From: Vagococcus sp. CY52-2
Lineage (GTDB): Bacteria; Bacillota; Bacilli; Lactobacillales; Vagococcaceae
Length of the DNA stretch: 64,000 nucleotides
Reading direction: 5' to 3'
NCBI RefSeq assembly: GCF_022655055.1
Contig: NZ_CP093384.1
Coordinates: forward strand, 310,001-374,000
The position numbers were made by a program, and so were the translations under genes. Positions 1 through 13,091 of the stretch are shown here, one piece after another. The notes under the pieces were generated by a model, which ran no database searches, had not been told where the DNA came from, and saw only the letters and a program-made list of their open reading frames with translations. Each line of letters opens with the position of its first letter. Position 1 is the first letter of the stretch.

Positions 1-162
1 GTTACTATCATGGTTAAAGGTGATGTGGCGGCTGTTGAGAGTGCAGTAGAAGCTGGGGCAAGAGCGGCGAAAGAAATTGGGACACTGACAGCACATAACG
101 TCATGCCAAGACCTATTGAAGCAATCGGAAAAATTGTATCGGTTCACAGTATTGATGGATAA
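1..162 (+). CDS. BMC-H shell protein, 3' end only
   Basis: Only the last 53 residues lie in the window, read in frame from base 1 to a TAA at 160-162. They contain the end of a BMC domain: a strand followed by the KGDVAAVESAVEAG helix typical of hexameric shell proteins, then HNVMPRP, which closes the fold in the PduA/EutM group. A short tail (EAIGKIVSVHSIDG) follows. The next shell gene starts 16 bases downstream, so this is one of several tandem shell genes in the choline operon, which begins to the left of the window. Confidence 0.9.
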   Translation, partial: VTIMVKGDVAAVESAVEAGARAAKEIGTLTAHNVMPRPIEAIGKIVSVHSIDG

Positions 163-178
163 AGAGGAGGGGATGCAG

Positions 179-502
179 ATGCAAAGTTTTGAAGCAATTG
201 GCGCAATCGAAACATTTGGTTTGGTATTTGTACTAGAAGCGTGTGATGCCATGTGCAAAGCGGCAGATGTTGAGTTAGTCGGATATGAAAATGTTGCATC
301 AGGGTATATTTCAGTCATTGTAAAAGGTGACGTTGCTGCGTGTAAAGCAGCAGTAGAAGCTGGAACATCAGCAGTAGAAAAACTAGGAGCGGAAGTTTAT
401 AGCTCGGTAGTGATTGCTGGACCACATATGGATTTAAATAAAATCATTCAGTATTATCAATTACTTGATGAACCGCTTCAAGAGGAGGGAGCTGCTGTTT
501 AG
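179..502 (+). CDS. BMC-H shell protein with short C-terminal extension
   Basis: A 107-residue BMC-domain protein, expected to form hexagonal shell tiles. Residues 3-85 carry the fold (EAIGAIETFG, AADVELVGYE, VKGDVAACKAAVEAG). About 20 further residues after IAGPHM form an acidic tail not found in minimal PduA-type tiles. The start at 179 is chosen because AGGAGG at 165-170 sits 8 bases upstream; the in-frame ATG at 173 is too close to it. The stop codon abuts the ATG of the aldehyde dehydrogenase-like gene, so the two are translationally coupled. Confidence 0.88.
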   Translation: MQSFEAIGAIETFGLVFVLEACDAMCKAADVELVGYENVASGYISVIVKGDVAACKAAVEAGTSAVEKLGAEVYSSVVIAGPHMDLNKIIQYYQLLDEPLQEEGAAV

Positions 503-1924
503 ATGAGTAGAGCAGACAAAGATCTGTTATCAATCCAAGAAGCAAGAATTCTTGTAGAAAACGCAAGGAATGCTCAATTTTTAGTTAAAGATTATAAGCA
601 AAGTTACTTAGATAAAATCATTAATCAATTAATAGATGATATAACAATTGAGTTAGCACACTTTGTAGACATGGAAGTCAATGAAACAAAACGTGGGTGT
701 AAAAAAGACAAGGAATGGTTATTAAATACTTTTTTATCACAATTAAAAAAAGAGTTACCCGACCAACAGTGTATTGGAGAGCTTTTAAAAGATTCTGCGG
801 GGAATATTTTAAAAGTAGGTGTGCCTTTAGGAGTGGTAGTAGCCTTCCCTTCTGAAAATAATGTCGTCCTAAACACGTTATATAGTCTTATTATCGGCAT
901 TAAATCGGGAAATAGTACTATTATTATTCCAGATAATCAAGCCTATCGTACAACCATTCATATTGTAAATGGTGTTAAAGATATTTGTGAAAAATATGGT
1001 TTGCCAGTGGGCTGTATCACATGTCTTGAGACCACTTCTGAAAGTGGAATATTAGAAATAGTGACACATAAAAACACTTCTATGATTATTTCGGCCGGAA
1101 AAATAACCAACACAACTAACACTCAAAAGCCGATGATTTATGGAGGAACAGGTGGAACACCAGTTTTTATTGAACACACAGCTAATATTTCAAATGCCGT
1201 ACAGTCAGTGATAGACAGTCGTTCGCTAGATAACGGGATGTTACCAGGTTCAGAACAATATTTAATTGTTGAACAAAGCATCGCGAGTGAAGTGAAAAAA
1301 CAATTTCAAAAAAAAGGGGCTCATTTTCTATCTGAAGAAGAAGAACATCAGTTGCTTAATCTGTTACAGCCTAAAAATAATGGCATTAATCCTATATGCG
1401 TTGGTAAAAATGCTAGAGAATTAGCTAAAATGGCTCATTTTTCTGTTGAAGAAAGTACCAACATTCTAGTATCGGAAAAAAATTATGTGCATGAGCTAGA
1501 TCCTTTTGTTAATGAAATGAAATGCCCAGTGATTGCTTTTTATTTAGAACCTGATTGGATGCATGCCTGCGAAAAATCGATTCGGTTATTAAGGGAAAAA
1601 AATAACGGTCATACGATAGCGATCCATTCAAACAATATAGAAATATTAAACCAATTTGCCTTAAAGAAACCTGTCGGACGAATGATCGTTAATTCACCGT
1701 CGTCCTTAGCTAGCATGGGAATTGATTCAACGTTATCAATTTCTTGTTTATTAGGTGGTTTAACAACTGGTAAAGGTATTAGTGCTAAAAACATCACAGC
1801 ATCAGATTTAACGTATATGCGAGAAATTAGTCACTCAACAAAGTATGTTGAACATACTAGCAGTGTTGAGGAAGAATCACATGAAAAAATGTTAGAAGAG
1901 ATTTTACGAAAAATTTTAGCTTAA
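503..1924 (+). CDS. Aldehyde dehydrogenase-like BMC protein lacking the catalytic cysteine
   Basis: This 473-residue protein belongs to the acylating aldehyde dehydrogenase family (PduP/EutE/CutF) and is a paralogue of the protein at 10604. They share the N-terminal DKDLxSIQEAR stretch and the overall layout. The catalytic block differs: the active copy reads DNGTICASEQ (Cys251), while this one reads DNGMLPGSEQ, putting Pro248 at the nucleophile position. The cofactor-region motifs are also eroded (AFPSENN against GIIPSTNP). The C-terminal 18 residues form an amphipathic helix (EKMLEEILRKILA) like BMC-targeting peptides. I infer a non-catalytic or scaffolding role in the compartment. It lies directly upstream of cutC. 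Family assignment is firm; function is unknown. Confidence 0.85.
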   Translation: MSRADKDLLSIQEARILVENARNAQFLVKDYKQSYLDKIINQLIDDITIELAHFVDMEVNETKRGCKKDKEWLLNTFLSQLKKELPDQQCIGELLKDSAGNILKVGVPLGVVVAFPSENNVVLNTLYSLIIGIKSGNSTIIIPDNQAYRTTIHIVNGVKDICEKYGLPVGCITCLETTSESGILEIVTHKNTSMIISAGKITNTTNTQKPMIYGGTGGTPVFIEHTANISNAVQSVIDSRSLDNGMLPGSEQYLIVEQSIASEVKKQFQKKGAHFLSEEEEHQLLNLLQPKNNGINPICVGKNARELAKMAHFSVEESTNILVSEKNYVHELDPFVNEMKCPVIAFYLEPDWMHACEKSIRLLREKNNGHTIAIHSNNIEILNQFALKKPVGRMIVNSPSSLASMGIDSTLSISCLLGGLTTGKGISAKNITASDLTYMREISHSTKYVEHTSSVEEESHEKMLEEILRKILA

Positions 1925-1950
1925 AACATTATGTAAAGTGAGGAATTAAG

Positions 1951-4491
1951 ATGGATATTAAAGAATTTTCAGCTAAATTGGCTGAAGCAACAAAAGAATT
2001 AAGTACAGAAGAACAGCAAGCCTTGATGAAGATGTTTGCTTCTGTATCAGATGATATTACAAAAACAGATTCAGTTGATTTAACTTTTGTAAGCGGTAAT
2101 CACACAGAGATTCCAAATGGTGTTACACCTAGGTTAGAAGCGTTGAAAGAAAATTATTTAAAACAAAAACCGACTATCACAACTCATAAAGCGCGCGTCA
2201 TGACCGAAATAGCTAGAGAAAATCCTGGAATGCCTAAAAATATTTTGCGTTCAAAATCATTTAAGAAAAGTTGTGAGACAGCACCATTAGTGATTCAAGA
2301 CAATGAATTAATTGTTGGTGCACCAAATGGCGCACCAAGAGCTGGATCTTTTTCACCAGATATCGCATGGCGTTGGATGGAAGAAGAAATTGATACTATT
2401 TCTAGTAGACCACAGGATCCATTTTATATTTCTGATGAAGACAAACGCATCATGAAAGAAGAGTTATTTCCATTTTGGAAAGGCAAATCAATTGATGAAT
2501 ACTGTGAAGATCAATTTAGAGAAGCAGGTGTTTGGGAAATTTCTGGTGAATCATTTGTATCAGATTGCTCTTATCACGCATTAAACGGTGGGGGAGATTC
2601 TAATCCTGGTTATGATGTCATCTTAATGAAAAAAGGGATGCTTGATGTTCAAAAAGAAGCGCAAGAACAATTAGATAAATTAAGTTATGACAATCCTGGA
2701 GATATCGAAAAAATTTATTTCTATAAATCAATCATTGAAACAGCTGAAGGCGTAATGATTTACGCTCGCCGCTTGTCAGAATACGCAGCACAACTTGCAG
2801 CAAAAGAAACGAATCCACAACGTAAAAAAGAATTACAAAAAATTTCAGAAATTAATGCGAGAGTACCAGCTCATAAACCTGAAACATTCTGGGAAGCAAT
2901 TCAAGCCGTTTGGACCATTGAATCTCTACTTGTTGTAGAAGAAAATCAAACAGGTATGTCAATTGGTCGAGTGGATCAATACATGTACCCATTCTTTAAA
3001 AATGATATCGAAACAGGTCGAATGAGTGAATATGAGGCATTCGAATTAGCGGGTTGTATGTTAATTAAAATGTCAGAAATGATGTGGATAACAAGTGAAG
3101 GTGGTTCTAAATTCTTTGCTGGTTATCAACCATTTGTCAATATGTGCGTGGGCGGAGTAACTCGTGAAGGCTACGACGCAACCAATGATTTAACTTATTT
3201 ATTAATGGATGCTGTGAGACATGTAAAAGTGTACCAACCATCATTAGCTTGTCGTATTCATAATCGCTCACCTCGAGAATACTTGAAAAAAATTGTGGAT
3301 GTTGTTCGTGCTGGAATTGGGTTCCCTGCCTGTCATTTTGATGACACACATATCAAGATGATGTTAGCTAAAGGTGTATCGATTGAAGATGCACGTGATT
3401 ACTGTTTGATGGGTTGTGTCGAACCGCAAAAAGCAGGAAGACTTTATCAATGGACTTCTACAGCTTATACACAATGGCCAATTTGTATTGAATTAGTATT
3501 AAATAGAGGCGTTCCTTTATGGTATGGTAAACAAGTTTGTCCAGATTTAGGCGATGTATCACAATATAAAACATATGAACAATTTGAAGAAGCTGTTAAA
3601 GAGCAAATCAAATATGTGACAGAATTATCATCCATCGCAACGGTTATCACTCAACGTGTTCACCGAGATTTAGCACCAAAACCGTTAATGTCAATCATGT
3701 ATGAAGGTTGTATGGAAAATGGAAAAGATGTATCAAGTGGTGGGGCGATGTATAACTTTGGTCCTGGTGTGGTTTGGTCAGGATTGGCAACGTATGCAGA
3801 TTCAATGGCAGCTATTAAAAAATTAGTCTTTGAAGAGAAAAAATACACACTTGAAGAACTAAATACAGCACTAAAAGCAGACTTTGTTGGTTATGAACAA
3901 GTTAGAACAGATTGCTTAAATGCACCAAAATATGGAAATGATGATGACTATGCAGATTTAATTGCAGCAGATCTTATTCACTTTACAGAAAAAGAACATC
4001 GTAAACACAAAACATTATTCTCAGAATTATGTCACGGAACGTTATCTATTTCAAACAACACACCTTTAGGTCAGTTGACAGGAGCATCTGCCAATGGTCG
4101 TAAAGCATGGATTCCATTATCAGATGGTATCAGCCCAACACAAGGAGCAGACTTCAAGGGACCTACAGCGATTATTAAATCTGTTTCTAAAATGGCCAAT
4201 GACACAATGAATATGGGAATGGTTCACAACTTTAAAATTATGTCAGGTATGTTAGATACAGAAGAAGGCGAAAATAGTTTAATTACATTACTTAAAACAG
4301 CGAGCGTGTTAGGAAATGGCGAAATGCAATTTAACTACCTTGATAATGAAACCCTTCTAGATGCACAAAGACATCCAGAACAATACCGTGATTTGATTGT
4401 TCGTGTGGCAGGATATAGTGCATTCTTCGTTGAATTATGTCAAGACGTTCAAGATGAGATTATCAGCCGTACAATGATAACAAAATTTTAG
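1951..4491 (+). CDS. cutC: Choline trimethylamine-lyase (glycyl radical enzyme)
   Basis: CutC cleaves choline to trimethylamine and acetaldehyde inside the microcompartment. The 846-residue protein carries the glycyl radical motif RVAGYSAFF with Gly821 and the thiyl motif GCVEP with Cys489 and Glu491. The choline-pocket residues known from the Desulfovibrio enzyme fall at the same numbers: Tyr208, Asp216, Phe395, Thr502 and Tyr506. Together these separate it from pyruvate formate-lyase and glycerol or propanediol dehydratases. The length matches short type I CutC; the long N-terminal extension of type II (GRM2) CutC is absent. The first ~30 residues form a charged amphipathic helix that could be a targeting tag. 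A GAGG ribosome-binding site precedes the ATG. CutD follows after 15 bases. Confidence 0.98.
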
Positions 4492-4506
4492 CAATAAGTT
4501 AGAAAA

Positions 4507-5457
4507 GTGGTGAATCAATTGATAGATTCAGTCGAAAGACAGGTTATGGTTTTTAATATCCAAAAATATAGTCTTTATGATGGACCTGGTATTCGGACGA
4601 TTGTATTTTTTAAAGGCTGCCCTTTAAGATGTCAATGGTGTGCTAATCCAGAAGGGTTAGAACGAAAATTTCAAGTCATGTATAAAGAAAGTATTTGTAG
4701 TGATTGCCATGCTTGTGTGGATGCTTGCCCAGTTGGAATTCATTATATTGATGAAAAAGGAAATCACCAAGTAAATCGTGATATTGCGTGTACAGGATGT
4801 CAAGAATGTGTGGCAGTTTGTCCAATGTCTGCGTTGAATATAACAGGTGAGATTCGCTCTATTTCTGAAGTAATGGAAATCATTCATGAAGATGATGAGT
4901 TTTATGAACAATCTGGTGGCGGTGTGACATTGAGTGGTGGTGAGTGTACTGCTCAACCAGAAGCAGCACTTGCGTTATTACAAGCATGTAAGACAGACGG
5001 CATTAATACAGCAATCGAAACATGTGGACACTCACGAATGGATCGATTGATGGCAATTGCTGATTATGTGGATTTATTTTTATATGATTTAAAACATATG
5101 GATCCAGTGAAACATAATAAACTAACAGGTATTAGCAATGAACGAATTTTAGAAAATCTAAAACAATTATTAGAAGATGGGCATGATGTTCATATTAGAA
5201 TGCCAATGTTGAAAATGATTAATGATAGTAAACCAGAAATTGAGCAGATTATTAATTTCTTATTACCTTACAAAGATTATCCTAACTTCAAAGGCATTGA
5301 TTTATTACCATACCATAAATTAGGTGTGAATAAATATGGCCAATTAGGTATGGAATATCCAGTAGACGGCGATCCATCATTAACTGATGCGGAGTTAGAC
5401 CAAATTGAAAGTTGGATTAAAGAGTATGATTTCTTTGTAAAAGTGGTCCGACATTAA
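4507..5457 (+). CDS. cutD: CutC activating enzyme, radical SAM protein
   Basis: CutD uses S-adenosylmethionine and a [4Fe-4S] cluster to install the glycyl radical on CutC. The radical SAM cysteine motif (C-x3-C-x2-C in GCPLRCQWCANPE) is near residues 38-45. It is followed by a ferredoxin-like insert with two cysteine quartets (CSDCHACVDACP and CTGCQECVAVCP), standard for glycyl radical activases of this class. Length (316) is normal. The start is uncertain: GTG at 4507 has no good ribosome-binding site, and TTG at 4519, preceded by AAGTGGTG, is an alternative that removes four residues. The gene is in the same operon as its substrate cutC. Confidence 0.95.
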   Translation: MVNQLIDSVERQVMVFNIQKYSLYDGPGIRTIVFFKGCPLRCQWCANPEGLERKFQVMYKESICSDCHACVDACPVGIHYIDEKGNHQVNRDIACTGCQECVAVCPMSALNITGEIRSISEVMEIIHEDDEFYEQSGGGVTLSGGECTAQPEAALALLQACKTDGINTAIETCGHSRMDRLMAIADYVDLFLYDLKHMDPVKHNKLTGISNERILENLKQLLEDGHDVHIRMPMLKMINDSKPEIEQIINFLLPYKDYPNFKGIDLLPYHKLGVNKYGQLGMEYPVDGDPSLTDAELDQIESWIKEYDFFVKVVRH

Positions 5458-5490
5458 GTGATGAGAGTGATTAAAAAGGAGTGAGTTGAC

Positions 5491-5835
5491 TTGTTAGATG
5501 ATACGGTTAAACGAGTAATAGAAGAATCTGTCCCAGGAAAACAAGTCACCTTAGCTCATGTGATAGCTTCTCCCATAGAAGAAATTTATGAGTCTCTAGG
5601 TATTGAAAATGAAGGAGCCATTGGTATTTTGACTATTTCTCCTTTTGAAACAGCAATTATCGCAGCAGATATTGCAGGAAAAAGTGCCGATGTACAAGTT
5701 GGGTTTTTGGATCGTTTTACAGGATCTGTCTTGATTTCTGGAGATGTTCAAAGTGTAGAGGAAGCTTTGCAAACAGTGGTCAATACACTGAAGCAAACAT
5801 TGAACTATGAAGTTGTTAAGGTGACACGAACATGA
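5491..5835 (+). CDS. Circularly permuted BMC-H shell protein (EutS/PduU/CutR type)
   Basis: A 114-residue shell protein with the permuted BMC fold. An N-terminal strand pair (VPGKQVTLAHVIASP) precedes the core, which reads ILTISPFETAIIAADIA then ADVQVGFLDRFTGSVLISGDVQSVEEAL. These blocks are diagnostic of EutS/PduU-like hexamers, whose extra N-terminal strands can form a small barrel over the pore. Translation starts at a TTG with AAGGAG about 8 bases upstream. Its last codons overlap the start of the next gene by four bases (ATGA). Confidence 0.92.
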   Translation: MLDDTVKRVIEESVPGKQVTLAHVIASPIEEIYESLGIENEGAIGILTISPFETAIIAADIAGKSADVQVGFLDRFTGSVLISGDVQSVEEALQTVVNTLKQTLNYEVVKVTRT

Positions 5836-6272
5836 AAAAACGTGTGCTTATTATAGGACCTAAAAATAGTGGGACAAGAGTGATTGCTCAAGGGATTGAA
5901 CAATCACAAACACCGATAAAAAAAGTAGCTAATGTATTATATACCGATAAAACGATTATTGTACCTAATACTTATTTAGAAAGTCCGTGGATGCATAAGC
6001 ACATTATTGCATTGCAACAATCAGCTAGCTACGCATTATTCTTAGTCCCTATACAATGTAAGAAAATAAGTTACCCACCTAATTTTTCAAAGGTTTTTCG
6101 CGTACCAGTTATGGGGATTATCACAAGTGTGGGTGATGAGTTTTCAAAAAAAGAACAACAATATGCTAGAACCGTGATTGAAAAAATAGGGTTGTCATCA
6201 AACTGGTGTCAGCTTAATTTAGAAACAGAATTTGATTTAGAAGACATGATTCAAATACATAGTAAAAAATAA
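5832..6272 (+). CDS. EutP/PduV-like protein with degenerate GTPase motifs
   Basis: This 146-residue protein aligns over its length with the EutP/PduV family of small Ras-like proteins in microcompartment operons: an N-terminal strand-loop start (KKRVLIIGPKNSG), a PNTYLESPWMHKHIIAL segment where EutP has its DTPGEY region, and a late PVMGIITSVGDE segment. The nucleotide-binding motifs are damaged. The P-loop reads GPKNSGTR, missing the essential Lys-Ser/Thr, and the expected TKxD is TSVGD. It probably does not hydrolyse GTP by the usual mechanism. Start overlaps the upstream stop (ATGA). Role in BMC assembly or positioning is inferred from family and context. Confidence 0.7.
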   Translation: MKKRVLIIGPKNSGTRVIAQGIEQSQTPIKKVANVLYTDKTIIVPNTYLESPWMHKHIIALQQSASYALFLVPIQCKKISYPPNFSKVFRVPVMGIITSVGDEFSKKEQQYARTVIEKIGLSSNWCQLNLETEFDLEDMIQIHSKK

Positions 6273-6295
6273 ATTGTTAGAAAGGAGGTGTTACG

Positions 6296-7438
6296 TTGTT
6301 AAATGAATTTCAAGTCGCAACCCATATTATTTCAGGAACAGATTCTTTAAGTGAATTACAAAATCTTTCCTTAAAAAAAGTATTAATAGTGTGTGATCCT
6401 TACATGGTAAACAGTGGAAAAGTAGAAATAATGACGAGCCTGTTTGTGGAAAGTGGTGTCGAATACACGATTTTTTCAGATATATCTCCAGATCCAACGA
6501 TTGATATTGTAACAAAAGGATTGGTCTCTACGTTATCTTTCGAGCCAGATAGTATCGTTGCTCTTGGTGGAGGTTCTGCAATGGATGCAGCCAAAGCCAT
6601 TCGTTATATTTATCAAATGATTAAGCAAACACTTGATGTATCACTGGTTTGTATTCCAACAACAAGTGGAACTGGGAGCGAAGTCACATCATTTTCAGTG
6701 ATATCTGATCCATCAACGGATAGTAAGTATGCGTTAGTAGATAAAAAAATGATTCCAAACGTTGCCATATTAGATCCAAAAATTGTGTTAACAGTCCCTA
6801 AAAACATTACGGCAGATACTGGTATTGATGTGTTTACTCATTGTATTGAAGCTTTAGCCTCAACTAAAGCAAATGACTTTACCGATGCCAATAGTGAAAA
6901 AGCAATCAAGATTATTTGGAATGATTTAGTTAAGGCATACAATGATGGAGATAACTTAATCGTAAGAGAGATGATTCATAATGCCTCTTGTTTAGCTGGA
7001 ATTGCATTTAATGAAGCCTCTTTAGGAATATGTCATAGTTTAGCTCATGCTTTAGGTGGAAAATTTCATATCCCACATGGACGAGCGAATGCGCTGTTAT
7101 TACCTCATGTTATTGCTTATAACGCAGAACTTGATAATGATTTTGAAACATCTAATTTAGAGACGTACTATCAAATAGCAAATGTTTTAGGGGTACGATC
7201 TGGTACGAAAAAATCTACAGTCTATGCTTTTATTTCTAAACTACAACGGTTAATGAAACAACTAGACTTACCTCAAACTATTGAAGAATTTGAGATTGAT
7301 AAAGATGATTTTATCTCAGCTATTCCTGAGATGGCTCAAAAAGCAATGAAAGACCAATGCACGATAACCAATCCTAGACAACCTCAGCAAGCTGATTTAG
7401 AAAATATCTATAGTAAATTGTTGAGAGGTGGGTATTAA
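6296..7438 (+). CDS. cutO: Iron-containing alcohol dehydrogenase (CutO/EutG type)
   Basis: A 380-residue group III (Fe) alcohol dehydrogenase. It shows the nucleotide-binding GGGSAMDAAKAI motif, the TTSGTGSEVT motif and metal-ligand histidines in DVFTHCIEAL, CHSLAHALGG and IPHGRANALLLPH. In a choline microcompartment it is expected to reduce acetaldehyde to ethanol, regenerating NAD+ used by the CutF aldehyde dehydrogenase. Translation begins at TTG with AGGAGG upstream at a good distance. The next gene starts immediately after its stop. Gene symbol follows usage for choline operons; substrate is inferred from context. Confidence 0.92.
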   Translation: MLNEFQVATHIISGTDSLSELQNLSLKKVLIVCDPYMVNSGKVEIMTSLFVESGVEYTIFSDISPDPTIDIVTKGLVSTLSFEPDSIVALGGGSAMDAAKAIRYIYQMIKQTLDVSLVCIPTTSGTGSEVTSFSVISDPSTDSKYALVDKKMIPNVAILDPKIVLTVPKNITADTGIDVFTHCIEALASTKANDFTDANSEKAIKIIWNDLVKAYNDGDNLIVREMIHNASCLAGIAFNEASLGICHSLAHALGGKFHIPHGRANALLLPHVIAYNAELDNDFETSNLETYYQIANVLGVRSGTKKSTVYAFISKLQRLMKQLDLPQTIEEFEIDKDDFISAIPEMAQKAMKDQCTITNPRQPQQADLENIYSKLLRGGY

Positions 7439-8014
7439 ATGTATTTTTTTACAGAAAAAGACCTACGTATGATGTATAAAAAAAAAGCATTTAATCAATT
7501 TGTTTTAGAGAAACATCAAAAATTAACACCAGAAGCAAAACAATTTTTATCAGATCGAAAAATTGATGTGACGATTAAAAAAGAAAAAGATATCGTAAAC
7601 AATGAGCCTGAATCAGTGAAACAAGCAACTAATACAGAATGGATTGGCTATAAAGAAGTTCTTTCCTCAGAAATATTAGAAGCCTATTTTCTTGGTGAAA
7701 AAATTAAACATAAGATAACGCATCGTATATTATTACTTGAAACATCAATTAATCATATGCTGTCGCAAGAAGAAAAATCAAAAGAAACATCTGATGATCG
7801 TTTTCCTGTATGCGAGAATGTGTCTTCTTATGTGGTTAATTTGGAAGGGCCACTACTAGTAAAATTACAAAAAGTCTATGGGTTACTTTGTTTGATGGCT
7901 CGAACATTTCCTGAATTTAGTCATGGGTTTAGAGAAGTGATACGCGAGCTGGTAGACATAGTTGACACGATAGTTGGAGGTATAGATGACAAACGAAATG
8001 ACATTACATTGTAA
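7439..8014 (+). CDS. EutT-like N-terminal domain protein of unknown function
   Basis: A 191-residue protein. Residues 3-45 (FTEKDLRMMY ... KLTPEAKQFLSDRKIDV) resemble the N-terminal segment of EutT, the ethanolamine-locus cobalamin adenosyltransferase, and similar segments opening EutQ. The remainder is helical (KITHRILLLETSINHMLSQEE) and lacks the cysteine-rich metal site of EutT. CutC does not need B12, so adenosyltransferase activity is unlikely to be required here; a structural or assembly role is possible. The ATG follows the preceding stop directly, with GAGAGGTGG as ribosome-binding site, and its 3' end overlaps eutJ by 29 bases. Confidence 0.6.
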   Translation: MYFFTEKDLRMMYKKKAFNQFVLEKHQKLTPEAKQFLSDRKIDVTIKKEKDIVNNEPESVKQATNTEWIGYKEVLSSEILEAYFLGEKIKHKITHRILLLETSINHMLSQEEKSKETSDDRFPVCENVSSYVVNLEGPLLVKLQKVYGLLCLMARTFPEFSHGFREVIRELVDIVDTIVGGIDDKRNDITL

Positions 8015-8822
8015 TAAGTTTATCGAAACATTTGAAACGGTTATTAAAACACCTAAAAAAAGTAAGTCTGACATCTATTATACAGGAGTCGATTTAGGAA
8101 CGGCTTGCATAGTTTTGGTGGTTTTAGATAGTGACTATCAGCCTGTTGCAGGTGCTTATCAATACGCCAATGTTGTAAGAGATGGAATGGTAGTTGACTA
8201 TGTAGGTGCTGTAGATATCGTCAGTGAATTAAAACAAGATTTAGAAAAAAAACTTGGAACCACACTTGTTTATGCAGCAGCATCACTACCACCAGGAACA
8301 GATGATTTAGATGGTGGTGCGATTAAAAATGTGGTTCAAAGTGCAGGGTTTGAATTAACCAAGGTATTAGATGAGCCAACAGCTGCCAATCAGTTATTAA
8401 ATATAACTGATGGCGCTGTGGTTGATATTGGTGGAGGAACAACTGGAATTGCTATTTTAGAAAATGGAAAAGTAGTGAAAGTAGCCGATGAAGCAACAGG
8501 TGGAACACATTTATCACTTGTGATTGCTGGGAATTATAAATTTAATTTTGAACAAGCCGATAAATACAAACGAAATGAAGCGCATCATGATGAATTACTG
8601 ATCGTGGTAAAACCTGTTATTCAAAAAATAGCATCCATTATTTCAAATCAAATTAATGGTTATAAAGTTAATGCTATCTATCTTGTAGGAGGTACTGCTT
8701 GCTTAAAAGGAATCGAGACAATTATTGAAAAAGAAACAGGGATAAAAACAATTAAGCCCATTAATCCTATGTTTGTAACACCCATAGGAATTGCGTTGAG
8801 TTGTACTAATCAAGTTATGTAA
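7986..8822 (+). CDS. eutJ: EutJ-like actin/Hsp70-fold chaperone
   Basis: A 278-residue member of the EutJ family, an actin-like ATPase fold common in ethanolamine and choline microcompartment operons. Visible phosphate-binding motifs are GVDLGTACIVLVVLD (phosphate 1), VVDIGGGTTGIAIL (phosphate 2) and the adenosine motif YLVGGTACLKGIE. The DEPTAAN motif, shared with Hsp70/MreB-type proteins, sits between them. It is thought to help fold or activate lumen enzymes, but the biochemical role is not established. TTGGAGG lies upstream of the ATG, inside the previous gene. Confidence 0.9.
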   Translation: MTNEMTLHCNKFIETFETVIKTPKKSKSDIYYTGVDLGTACIVLVVLDSDYQPVAGAYQYANVVRDGMVVDYVGAVDIVSELKQDLEKKLGTTLVYAAASLPPGTDDLDGGAIKNVVQSAGFELTKVLDEPTAANQLLNITDGAVVDIGGGTTGIAILENGKVVKVADEATGGTHLSLVIAGNYKFNFEQADKYKRNEAHHDELLIVVKPVIQKIASIISNQINGYKVNAIYLVGGTACLKGIETIIEKETGIKTIKPINPMFVTPIGIALSCTNQVM

Positions 8823-8834
8823 GGAGGCACAAAA

Positions 8835-9128
8835 ATGGATTGTCGAATTATTAAATCACCAGGTGAGAACACAATGGCTATTTTAAATAGACGAAAAAGT
8901 TCAAAAGAAAAATTAGAAAAACCAGGCGCTGTCGGTTTAGTACAAGGAAAATTGATTGAGATGGTTTGCGCCACAGATGTGGCTGAAAAAGCAGTTGGCG
9001 TGACGATTGAAGACATTCGTGGAAGTTGTCCTCAAAACATGATTTTATTAGCTATATTTGGTGATACAGCCTCCGTTGTCGCTGCGATTGATGAGATTAA
9101 ACGAAGAGAGAAGAATAACGAATGGTAA
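8835..9128 (+). CDS. GrpU-like permuted BMC shell protein with G-x-C-P-Q motif
   Basis: A 97-residue shell protein. An N-terminal strand pair (RIIKSPGENTMAILNRR) precedes the core helix pair (AVGLVQGKLIEMVCATDVAEKAVGV) and a final LLAIFGDTASVVAAIDEI helix, i.e. a permuted BMC domain. Residues 63-67 read GSCPQ, matching the pore-lining motif described for GrpU-type glycyl-radical BMC shell proteins that bind an Fe-S cluster at the hexamer axis. Cluster binding here is inference from that motif. AAGGAGG precedes the ATG. The gene overlaps the downstream eutN-like gene by seven bases. Confidence 0.8.
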   Translation: MDCRIIKSPGENTMAILNRRKSSKEKLEKPGAVGLVQGKLIEMVCATDVAEKAVGVTIEDIRGSCPQNMILLAIFGDTASVVAAIDEIKRREKNNEW

Positions 9129-9385
9129 CGGCAACCTTAATAGATAATATATGGGCAACACGCAAATCGGATAAGTTACAAGGACTTAAGTTAATGCTCG
9201 CTCAAATTAATGGAGGCGTTAAAGACGGTGAGATAATGGTTGTATGTGATGTTATTGGAGCTGGAATTGGTGATCGAGTTATTATTGCAACAGGGACAGC
9301 AGCTAGACGTATGTTAGAAGATGATTTGATTCCTGTTGATGCAGCAGTCATTGGTATTATCGATGAAAGCTGTGAGTCTGTATAA
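9122..9385 (+). CDS. eutN: EutN/CcmL-type pentameric vertex protein
   Basis: An 87-residue BMC vertex protein that forms pentamers closing the icosahedral corners. Characteristic stretches are ATRKSDKLQGLKLMLAQ, the DVIGAGIGDRVIIATGTAARRM core, and the VDAAVIGIID end. Length matches EutN/PduN/CcmL. It is the only pentamer-type gene visible in this operon. Start overlaps the upstream stop. Confidence 0.95.
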   Translation: MVTATLIDNIWATRKSDKLQGLKLMLAQINGGVKDGEIMVVCDVIGAGIGDRVIIATGTAARRMLEDDLIPVDAAVIGIIDESCESV

Positions 9386-9400
9386 AGAGAGTGTGACAAA

Positions 9401-9997
9401 ATGAAAAAATTGATTTGTGCCAGTGATGTTGAATCACTTCATGAAGAGAATAAACGAGTCATTCCTATATCAGAGAATACGATTGTAACCCCTTCAGCAC
9501 ATGATTTAGCTGAAGAATATGCTATGACATTTAAAGTTGAAAAAGAAACATTGGATTTACTAGACCTGATGACTGGTGAGTGGAGTAAGGAATCACTCGT
9601 GATCTTATTAAAAAGTTTACTAACAGGGGATCTCTTAACACCATTTATTCTTGAAAAAGACTCAAGTGGAATAGAAATTATAAAAAAAGAGAGCATCAAA
9701 TCACAAGAATTTCCGACAAAAGAAGAGGGTGTTACTTGTCAAACAGTGATGCACTCAACTGATGGGACAGCAGTTATTGAATTATTATCTTTAGAAGATA
9801 CTCACTTTATTGAACAACAACTAGAGGAGTCTTTCTATTATGTTATTTCTGGTGAATTTGATACCACTTTGAATGAAGGAAAGACAAATTTAACCATAGG
9901 TGACTTATTACATATTCCTAAAAATGAAGTCATTGATTGGAAGATTATCAAGAAAACAATGGTACTTAAAATACAACTAAAAGGATGTGTTAACTGA
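9401..9997 (+). CDS. eutQ: EutQ-like cupin protein
   Basis: A 198-residue protein of the EutQ family. The N-terminal part (KKLICASDVESLHEENKRV ... IVTPSAHDLAEEY) corresponds to the EutQ/EutT opening segment. The C-terminal ~90 residues form a cupin barrel (FYYVISGEFDTTLNEG ... GDLLHIPKNEVIDW). In Salmonella EutQ has been linked to acetate kinase activity and to BMC assembly; either could apply, and I see no acetate kinase gene in this operon. Ribosome-binding site GAGAGTG precedes ATG. The TGA overlaps the next ATG. Confidence 0.8.
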   Translation: MKKLICASDVESLHEENKRVIPISENTIVTPSAHDLAEEYAMTFKVEKETLDLLDLMTGEWSKESLVILLKSLLTGDLLTPFILEKDSSGIEIIKKESIKSQEFPTKEEGVTCQTVMHSTDGTAVIELLSLEDTHFIEQQLEESFYYVISGEFDTTLNEGKTNLTIGDLLHIPKNEVIDWKIIKKTMVLKIQLKGCVN

Positions 9998-10593
9998 TGA
10001 ATGACTCTCTTGGAATGATTGAAACAAAAGGTCTTTTGGCAACTATTGTGGCATCAGACACGATGTTAAAGTCAGCTGACATTCATCTAGTTGGCGTGAC
10101 AAAAGTAGGTGGTGGGTTAACCTCTATTTTAATTAAGGGTGATGTTTCGGCAGTAACCACAGCTGTGAGTGCTGCTGAATCGAATCTTTCATATTTATCA
10201 CTTGATTCATTAGTTTCATCTCATGTGATAGCTAGGACAGAAGTGGATACTCACTTTTTTATAGATGAGAAAGAGCCTGTTGTAATCGATAGTGAGAATA
10301 TCGAAGAAGTGATAGATAATGATGGATTCATTAGTGAAGATGAGTTGATGACACCTTTAGAGATTGAAGAAAAAATAGAAAACACATTAGATCTTGCCTT
10401 TTTAGAATTAGAGCAGATTACTTACCAAAATAAAGAGGAGCTAGTCAGTCAATTGACTCAAATGAAAGTAGTCGATTTGAGAAAACTAGCCAAACATCAA
10501 ATAGATTTTAGTATCGCTAGAAAAGAACTTTATAAAACAAGCAAAGAAAAATTAGTTGAGGCATTAAGTGAGTTTTTAATAAACAATGAATAG
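9997..10593 (+). CDS. BMC-H shell protein with SAP/Rho-N-like C-terminal domain
   Basis: Residues 1-85 are a BMC domain ([34 protein letters not shown]). An acidic linker (about 86-140) follows, then a helical module of about 45 residues with the pattern VVDLRKLAKHQIDFSIARKE followed by KEKLVEALSEFL. That spacing, two helices with LRxLAK and K-x-KLVEAL, resembles SAP, HeH or Rho N-terminal folds that bind nucleic acid or act as adaptors. PduK and EutK are other shell proteins with tails. Function of the tail is unknown. Starts within the eutQ stop (TGATG). Confidence 0.85.
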   Translation: MNDSLGMIETKGLLATIVASDTMLKSADIHLVGVTKVGGGLTSILIKGDVSAVTTAVSAAESNLSYLSLDSLVSSHVIARTEVDTHFFIDEKEPVVIDSENIEEVIDNDGFISEDELMTPLEIEEKIENTLDLAFLELEQITYQNKEELVSQLTQMKVVDLRKLAKHQIDFSIARKELYKTSKEKLVEALSEFLINNE

Positions 10594-10603
10594 AGGAGTT
10601 TGA

Positions 10604-12124
10604 ATGGAAATATTTGATAAAGACTTAAAATCCATACAGGAAGCAAGAGATTTAGCTCGCCAAGGAAAAGTAGCCGCTAATGAGATAGCGACTTTTTCAG
10701 AAGAGCAAATTGATCAAATCTTACAAAAAATGGTTCAAGTAATCAGTCAACAATCACCAAACTTAGCACAAAGAGCTGTTGATGAAACAGGTTTTGGAAA
10801 AGTAATGGATAAAATGTATAAGAATCATGCGGCATCAACTCTTTTATATGATGAGATAAAACATGAAAAAACAATAGGAATTGTGTCAGAGGATGAAGCC
10901 AAAGGAACATTTGATGTGGCTGAACCAGTAGGATTGGTATTAGGAATTATCCCATCAACCAATCCTACATCAACAGTGATTTTTAAATCAATGATTGCAA
11001 TAAAATCGCGAAATGCTATTGTGTTTTCACCACATCCATCAGCTCTAGACTGCACGAAAAAAACGGCTGAAATGCTAAATCGAGCAGCTGTGTCAGCAGG
11101 AGCTCCAGATGGCATTATAAGTTGTTCGACTATTCCAACTATGGCTGGAACAAATGAATTATTACATGCACCTGAAGTCAGTTTAATTATTGCAACAGGT
11201 GGACCTGGAATGGTAAAAGCAGCATATAGTTCTGGAAAACCAGCATTAGGTGTTGGAGCGGGAAATTCACCAGCTTACATTGAAAAAACAGCTGATGTTA
11301 AAACAGCAGTAGAAAAAATTATTGCGTCTAAAACATTTGATAATGGGACTATTTGTGCATCAGAGCAATCAATAATTTGTGAAAAAGGAATTGAATCAGA
11401 TGTTGTTCGTGAGTTTAAAGCACAAGGTGGATACTTTATGACACCAGAAGAAACAGATAAAGTATGTGGCTTATTATTTAAAAATGGTTATGTCATGAAT
11501 GCCGGATTTGTTGGACGAGAAGCTACAGTAATCGCAGAAGCAGCAGGTATTACTGTTCCGAGTGATACAAAAGTATTGATAGGTCGACAAGAAGGTGTAG
11601 GAAAAGGCTACCCATTATCATTTGAAAAACTGACAACTGTATTAGGTTTTTATGTAGTAAATAACTGGGAAGAAGCTTGCCATTTAAGTATTGAACTATT
11701 ACAAAATGGTATTGGACATACTATGAGTATCCATACGAATGACAAAGACATGGTAATGAAGTTCGCAGCAAAACCTGCCTCAAGAATTTTAGTTAACACT
11801 GGAGGTAGCCAAGGTGGAACAGGTATCTCAACTGGATTACCCATTTCATTTACATTAGGCTGTGGAACCTTTGGTGGAAGTTCTGTTTCTGAAAATGTCG
11901 GGCCAAAACATTTATTAAATATTAAAAAAGTAGCGTATGGATTAAAAGATGTTCGAACACTAGTCAGTGATGATAAAACATTTAACCCATATACGAATGA
12001 ATGCTCTAAAGAAGAAATAACTTGTCACACAAGTAGAGAAAAACAAGAGATAAAAGATGTTTCTGAAAGTGATTTGGAAACATTGACTAAAGTGGTTCGA
12101 CAAATATTATCAACCATGGACTAA
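10604..12124 (+). CDS. cutF: Acetaldehyde dehydrogenase, CoA-acylating
   Basis: A 506-residue PduP/EutE/CutF family enzyme that oxidises acetaldehyde to acetyl-CoA with NAD+ and CoA. The catalytic block DNGTICASEQ places the nucleophile at Cys251. The nucleotide-binding region shows GLVLGIIPSTNPTSTVIFKS and IIATGGPGMVKAAYSSGKPALGVGAGN in two separate stretches. The C-terminus after an acidic linker ends in an amphipathic helix (LETLTKVVRQILSTMD), a likely encapsulation peptide. The N-terminus (DKDLKSIQEAR) is shared with the cysteine-less paralogue at 503. GAGGAG precedes the ATG. Confidence 0.95.
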   Translation: MEIFDKDLKSIQEARDLARQGKVAANEIATFSEEQIDQILQKMVQVISQQSPNLAQRAVDETGFGKVMDKMYKNHAASTLLYDEIKHEKTIGIVSEDEAKGTFDVAEPVGLVLGIIPSTNPTSTVIFKSMIAIKSRNAIVFSPHPSALDCTKKTAEMLNRAAVSAGAPDGIISCSTIPTMAGTNELLHAPEVSLIIATGGPGMVKAAYSSGKPALGVGAGNSPAYIEKTADVKTAVEKIIASKTFDNGTICASEQSIICEKGIESDVVREFKAQGGYFMTPEETDKVCGLLFKNGYVMNAGFVGREATVIAEAAGITVPSDTKVLIGRQEGVGKGYPLSFEKLTTVLGFYVVNNWEEACHLSIELLQNGIGHTMSIHTNDKDMVMKFAAKPASRILVNTGGSQGGTGISTGLPISFTLGCGTFGGSSVSENVGPKHLLNIKKVAYGLKDVRTLVSDDKTFNPYTNECSKEEITCHTSREKQEIKDVSESDLETLTKVVRQILSTMD

Positions 12125-12132
12125 TTAAAGAG

Positions 12133-12783
12133 ATGAGTGAAAAAATGGAAAACTATGAAGAGTTATTAATAGAAATATTAAAGAAAATCGCCCAAGAATC
12201 ACAGACAACAGATCTTAGTATTCCAGTAGGGATTTCCAATCGCCATTGTCATTTATCTAGAGAAGACGTAGAAAGTTTATTTGGTAAAGGATATGAATTA
12301 ACTAAACTTAAAGACCTATCTCAACCTGGACAGTATGCATGCAAAGAAACCATCATGATTTGTGGTCCAGAAGGGATGATTGAAAATGTCAGAATTTTAG
12401 GACCTGAGAGAAAGCAAACACAAGTAGAAGTATTACAAAGTGACTGTTTTAAACTAGGCATAAAGGCACCATTAAGATTATCTGGCGATCTAGATCATTC
12501 AGGTGATGTGACCATGATTGGACCAAAAGGCTCTAAGATGTTGGTTTCAGGTGTGGTTGTGGCAAAACGTCATATTCACATGCCGTTAAAAGATGCCAAG
12601 CGTTTTGATGTTGTCGATGGAGAAAATGTGTCGATTGCTTTTGATGGTGCTAGAGGCGGCGTATTGAATGAAGTTATCGTACGAGTAGATAGTAACGCAG
12701 GCTTAGAATGTCATATAGATGTTGAAGAAGCCAATGCACTTGGTGTAAGTTCTAACACAAACATTGTGATTCAAAAAAATTAA
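12133..12783 (+). CDS. pduL: PduL-type phosphate acyltransferase
   Basis: A 216-residue PduL, the BMC phosphotransacylase unrelated to Pta, converting acetyl-CoA to acetyl-phosphate and recycling CoA in the lumen. Zinc-ligand motifs are visible: SNRHCHLSREDVE near the N-terminus and VVAKRHIHMPLKDAK in the second half. The N-terminal 20 residues (ENYEELLIEILKKIAQES) form the amphipathic encapsulation peptide common in PduL. Start at 12133 is retained; an in-frame ATG at 12145 is an alternative, because the spacing from AAAGAG to the first ATG is short. A classical pta lies nearby on the other strand. Confidence 0.95.
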   Translation: MSEKMENYEELLIEILKKIAQESQTTDLSIPVGISNRHCHLSREDVESLFGKGYELTKLKDLSQPGQYACKETIMICGPEGMIENVRILGPERKQTQVEVLQSDCFKLGIKAPLRLSGDLDHSGDVTMIGPKGSKMLVSGVVVAKRHIHMPLKDAKRFDVVDGENVSIAFDGARGGVLNEVIVRVDSNAGLECHIDVEEANALGVSSNTNIVIQKN

Positions 12784-12812
12784 TATAAAAGAAAATTTAG
12801 GAGGAAATTATA

Positions 12813-13091
12813 ATGAAATCAGATGCTTTAGGAATGATCGAAACAAAAGGACTAATTGGTTCAATAGAGGCTGCTGACGCAATGGTTAAAGCCGCAAATG
12901 TATCTTTAGTAGGAAAAGAATTAGTAGGTGGGGGGATTGTGACTGTAATGGTAAGAGGTGATGTTGGTGCAGTCAAAGCCGCAACAGATGCCGGTGCAGC
13001 CGCTGCTCAACGAGTGGGAGAATTATTATCTGTTCATGTTATTCCAAGACCTCATTCAGAAGTAGAAAACATTTTACCAACAGAAATCTAA
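12813..13091 (+). CDS. BMC-H shell protein (PduA/EutM type)
   Basis: A 92-residue minimal hexameric shell tile, likely a major facet protein. Hallmarks are [19 protein letters not shown], the pore loop [17 protein letters not shown] and the closing HVIPRPH. A strong AGGAGG precedes the ATG with good spacing, better than for most genes in the operon, consistent with high expression. It is the last gene of the choline operon; a hairpin follows. Confidence 0.95.

Follow-up and report, generated by a model that had tools for sequence, protein, structure and literature searches.

The presence of an aldehyde dehydrogenase (AldDH) homologue devoid of the catalytic cysteine in GRM1 choline-utilisation loci has been known since 2014, when Axen, Erbilgin and Kerfeld reported that this residue is replaced by Ser or Pro wherever a GRM1 locus has two AldDHs, and suggested a role as scaffold or regulator for the altered protein (PMC4207490). 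The Cys-less sequences were left out of their tree; the tree of Sutter et al. (2021), according to its legend, took them in, and for both GRM1A and GRM1B the same source marks a 'putatively inactive second copy' (PMC8217296). The name CutB was used in Front Genet 2019 (PMC6620236). As far as these descriptions reach, the protein considered here represents the same gene family at the same loci and differs in nothing essential; the analysed DNA thus adds another member to a known group.

Some active relatives of CutB have been characterised experimentally. The Klebsiella GRM2 AldDH binds the N-terminal domain of CutC, its co-migration with the shell requires this domain, or full-length CutC, and it cross-links and enlarges CutC complexes; the interactions were recorded in a recombinant system, and the authors concede that encapsulation with CutF, as the GRM2 enzyme is called, is uncertain (PMC6971018). 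Propionaldehyde dehydrogenase Cphy1178 (structures 4c3s and 5dbv) shares with CutB the fold and the positions of His and Glu, but is active and represents that branch of the AldDHs in which the EP is N-terminal. The C269A substitution abolished its activity with no change in structure, thus the catalytic Cys is essential there, and the mutant protein, an engineered analogue of the natural CutB, still binds CoA in the crystal (PMC4762007).

In the window, i.e. the whole analysed stretch of 64,000 nucleotides from Vagococcus sp. CY52-2, a GRM1-type choline-utilisation microcompartment locus spans bases 116-13091, and its beginning lies upstream of the window. The following features were assigned:

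116..502, + strand: BMC-H shell protein, immediately 5' of cutB (PF00936)
503..1924, + strand: cutB, Cys-less homologue of acetylating AldDH, 473 aa, Pro248 at the catalytic position (BLASTP, profile searches, AF2 model)
1244..1246, + strand: codon of Pro248, in the column of the nucleophile Cys251 of CutF (alignment)
1880..1921, + strand: predicted C-terminal amphipathic helix, encapsulation-peptide-like, codons 460-473 (model helix 460-472, moment 0.67)
1951..4491, + strand: cutC, choline trimethylamine-lyase, short (846 aa) GRM1 form (TIGR04394, 1642.6 bits vs cut-off 1050)
4507..5457, + strand: cutD, activating enzyme, radical SAM (position and sequence; the same order in E. raffinosus, where it is annotated cutD)
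10604..12124, + strand: cutF, active acetylating aldehyde dehydrogenase, 506 aa, Cys251 (TIGR02518, 722 bits vs cut-off 620)
12133..12783, + strand: PduL-type phosphotransacylase (sequence; the syntenic gene of E. raffinosus is annotated phosphate propanoyltransferase)

The 5' part of the cut locus (window 1-116; L186, 10779-14163) contains genes for a MerR-type regulator, a BMC-H protein, a DMT-family transporter, a 102-aa protein and another BMC-H protein. The 191-aa protein encoded at 7439-8014 has no Pfam or NCBIfam match and corresponds to a hypothetical protein at the same position in E. raffinosus; its C. ljungdahlii counterpart is probably a gene of a B12-independent pathway that has been entered as 'EutT function unknown'. 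At 9997-10593, a BMC-domain protein with a charged C-terminal extension of about 100 aa is encoded.

The cutB gene starts with ATG and lies directly 5' of cutC. Over a full-length alignment of 448 aa its product is 29% identical to CutF of the same locus (BLASTP, E=1e-64), and the ungapped match of DNGTICASEQ in CutF with DNGMLPGSEQ in CutB places Pro248 opposite Cys251. Since the flanking D-N-G and S-E-Q are preserved, and the column holds no Cys in any of 132 distinct CutBs, this correspondence is no alignment accident. Hence the original prediction, made from the letters of the window, that proline stands in place of the nucleophile was correct. CutB scored 324.5 bits against TIGR02518, below the curated threshold of 620.1 which CutF exceeds, and has neither the score nor the Cys of a functional acetylating AldDH. 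The best homologue is the Vagococcus bubulae orthologue (97% identity). An AlphaFold2 model of the window protein (mean pLDDT 87.8) superimposed on acetylating AldDHs 3k9d, the best PDB match, and 5j78 with TM of 0.87-0.89, which supports retention of the AldDH fold. The full length and the helical C-terminal tail noticed previously were likewise recovered, the latter as a predicted helix of residues 460-472, in a region where pLDDT is only about 44-68 from residue 451 onward. The helical moment of this tail (0.67) equals or exceeds that of nearly all shuffles, and the predicted helix is amphipathic and encapsulation-peptide-like.

The absence of Cys is a property of the whole family. Eighty homologous loci were obtained from one scan of GTDB genomes; in these, the homologue by which the locus was retrieved never has Cys at the catalytic column and nearly always adjoins cutC (distance of 300 bp or less in 76 of 79 loci). 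Among 132 distinct CutBs the column is occupied by Ser in 71, Pro in 49, Ala in 9 and Thr in 3. Another sample was anchored on CutC instead of CutB and included Desulfovibrionia loci and Bacillota genomes with CutC above the cut-off; a Cys-less CutB was present in all 30 Desulfovibrionia loci among the matches listed and in 12 of the 14 Bacillota genomes. The Cys-less CutB is thus common to almost all GRM1-type clusters, and not peculiar to the Vagococcus genome, a fact already published of which the original prediction was unaware. A relocated catalytic Cys, which according to that prediction would speak against loss of the nucleophile, was searched for in the homologues and rejected: none occurs at the catalytic site, and the CutB-specific conserved Cys, Cys90 (CutF numbering), is situated just before the oligomerisation hairpin, outside the catalytic loop, as judged from domain placement inferred from the residue ranges of Cphy1178 (PMC4762007).

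Further active-site residues were placed by alignment to Cphy1178 (PMC4762007). Outside Lactobacillales and GRM1b, the oxyanion Asn (Asn120 of CutF) is gone in 107 of 117 CutBs, and in a first, smaller set it was Ser in 74/74 non-Lactobacillales proteins; it is retained in 9 of 11 Lactobacillales CutBs, the window protein included, and in 8/9 of GRM1b. Thr122, Gly200 and Gly/Ser216 have given way to other residues in nearly all CutBs, and T122V, G200V and G/S216Y are near-fixed. The base His372 persists in 106/117 CutBs and Glu341 in 114/117, and the window protein retains the equivalents of Asn120, His372 and Glu341. Loss of dehydrogenase catalysis by CutB is strongly supported by the established mechanism together with conservation of these changes; catalysis by the known AldDH mechanism should not occur, while some residual ligand binding may persist.

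Despite this loss the gene is maintained, in agreement with what was proposed from its intact reading frame. In all six CutB pairs compared, dN/dS ranged from 0.06 to 0.18, indicating purifying selection; the reading frame is open throughout the set, CutB-specific invariant residues are present, and the C-terminal tail has a helical moment of at least 0.45 in 88 of 93 CutBs. Recent pseudogenisation was ruled out by the dN/dS values and the family-wide presence. In C. ljungdahlii, CutB (L032, Cys to Pro) was induced by choline, with log2 of 7.2 (PMC12016505); in strain DSM 13528 of this species, choline induces cutF as well as cutB.

A maximum-likelihood tree of 59 sequences (IQ-TREE, LG+G4; SH-aLRT/UFBoot supports, with a bipartition check) united all Cys-less CutBs, with the window protein among them, in one clade with support of 100/100. 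Together with its GRM1 context, and the replaced Cys beside another, intact AldDH, this position identifies the window protein as a CutB. Sister to this clade, with support of 97.3/100, is the active AldDH which GRM2 choline loci possess as their only one, and not CutF of GRM1 loci. Repeated independent losses of Cys from active CutF copies were excluded by the single clade, and such a topology, with the GRM2 AldDH as sister, would most simply imply one loss of Cys at the base of CutB, Asn120 being lost later in most lineages; the GRM1b CutBs, in which Cys is gone and Asn kept, resemble the first step of this process. The GRM2 AldDH of Proteus and Klebsiella shares with CutB the type of EP-like C-terminal tail and the kind of locus but, unlike CutB, retains Cys, Asn120 and His372, is the sole AldDH of its locus and is accompanied by a CutC which is longer at the N terminus by about 300-350 residues. 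CutF of the window (EutE-type, TIGR02518) has the AldDH fold and a C-terminal amphipathic helix as CutB does, but differs from it in possessing Cys251 and Asn120, and is not its closest relative.

CutB occurs together with the short CutC and is lacking from GRM2 loci in which CutC has an N-terminal extension: where CutC is long (1136-1165 aa), only a Cys-bearing AldDH was found. In the stretches read of GRM2 loci L187, L189, L237, L238 and L242, and of Photobacterium contig 534, there was a single active AldDH with long CutC and no CutB. In one of these, from a Klebsiella pneumoniae record (L189, 5864-7509), the coding sequence of the GRM2 AldDH is interrupted, its two parts lying in different reading frames, and no gene is listed for it; the cause is either a true frameshift or a sequencing error. 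In the literature we found no statement of CutB as one clade sister to the GRM2 AldDH, of its occurrence with short CutC and absence with the extended GRM2 form, or of a Bacillota genus whose GRM1 locus comes without CutB; the figure of Sutter et al. (2021), known to us by its legend, may nevertheless show the sister relation (PMC8217296).

The explanation which we favour, with moderate confidence, is that CutB is a catalytically dead acetylating AldDH which has become a standing component of the GRM1 choline microcompartment and acts as an assembly scaffold of its core. The AldDH fold and the oligomeric platform would be retained and, with the amphipathic C-terminal helix, reused for organisation of the organelle core; CutC may be bound by way of an interface already present in the common ancestor of CutB and the GRM2 AldDH, and acetaldehyde oxidation would be left to CutF. 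Participation of CutC binding in this role is possible by analogy, considering the adjacency of cutB and cutC, the behaviour of the Klebsiella sister protein and the long CutC of GRM2 loci lacking CutB; homology to a CutC-binding protein alone is insufficient to prove it, and we came across no study of the interactions, localisation or knockout of any CutB. Retention of His372 and Glu341 in most CutBs counts against a pure scaffold, which would not need them. Among the roles suggested originally (a structural partner of the active dehydrogenase, a linker between cargo and shell, or a sink for substrate or CoA), a structural or linker role would fit best, and the sink gained no positive support, as the acyl-enzyme cannot form and the nucleotide-site residues are altered. 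A more speculative extension, which we put forward only tentatively, is that CutB was the catalytic dehydrogenase of an ancestral choline organelle and became a CutC-docking scaffold after CutF had taken over, while the GRM2 homologue stayed active and docks on an additional, degenerate CutC domain; core assembly would then have been solved in two alternative ways, by CutB in GRM1 and by the extension of CutC in GRM2.

One could imagine instead that CutB is a non-catalytic subunit of mixed tetramers or dimers with CutF, tuning its activity, affinity or packaging. AldDHs of the same group are indeed tetramers (PMC4762007), an active CutF accompanies CutB wherever both could be read (the window, L034, L071, L183, L188 and others), and the oligomerisation segments of CutB are no less conserved than those of active enzymes, although the active set is more diverse than the CutB set, and entropy by domain therefore says little on interfaces. 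However, the identity between the supposed partners is low, the closest active relative of CutB is the GRM2 enzyme and not CutF of its own locus, and it is cutC, rather than cutF, that cutB adjoins, which makes such hetero-oligomers rather unlikely. The frequent preservation of His372 and Glu341, which a scaffold leaves without explanation, and the binding of CoA by Cphy1178 C269A would be understandable if CutB were a ligand-binding regulator or a reservoir of NAD, CoA or acetaldehyde devoid of enzymatic function. This we consider improbable, as the near-universal changes (N120, T122, G200V, G216Y) affect the positions expected to accommodate NAD or the oxyanion, and the Vagococcus CutB has a degraded nucleotide loop and a degraded PHP motif.

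Catalysis by a different residue, for instance a Ser nucleophile, could be suspected from the predominance of Ser among the replacements and the usual retention of the base; on the other hand, 61 of the 132 proteins, including all those from Lactobacillales, have Pro, Ala or Thr at the site, and some Desulfovibrionia CutBs have Gln for His372, hence we regard it as highly improbable. We give hardly any credence to the view that CutB is a functionless decaying duplicate. It is true that CutB evolves faster than CutC (dN/dS of 0.18 vs 0.05 in the Vagococcus pair) and is missing from one genus, yet the frame is open in every member, selection is purifying in each pair, invariant residues specific to CutB exist, and the protein persists across Bacillota, Desulfobacterota and Gammaproteobacteria.

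The genus without CutB is represented by two Bacillota genomes (G056 and G095); the GRM1 locus of each encodes a short CutC and an active AldDH, but CutB is absent from the entire genome and is therefore not indispensable. These loci (L173 and L174) are GRM1-like, with a short CutC (79% identical), and constitute a natural CutB-less lineage. Although our additions to the published picture are modest, the occurrence of Ala and Thr at the catalytic site, the loss of Asn120, the GRM2 sister relation and this lineage make the scaffold idea more testable. In particular, the sister relation turns the remark of 2014 into a comparison of a dead and an active homologue, with two forms of CutC and a lineage devoid of CutB. 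More generally, pseudoenzymes that reside in bacterial organelles are candidates for the unknown rules by which the core is assembled.

A Photobacterium (G398; L088/L220 and L192/L124) has a GRM1-type CutB (Pro) plus a GRM2 locus with a 1137-aa CutC. In another gammaproteobacterium (G1083; L235 and L236), a GRM1 locus with CutB (Pro) occurs besides two more Cys-bearing AldDHs, one of them in a 676-aa open frame. A second CutC-like enzyme, 56% identical to CutC of the window (1266 bits) and with an in-frame TAG, is encoded in genome G399 (L125), and no CutB was found beside it within the 4.7 kb examined. Several Desulfovibrionia carry comparable genes for CutC-like enzymes, with scores of about 1300 bits.
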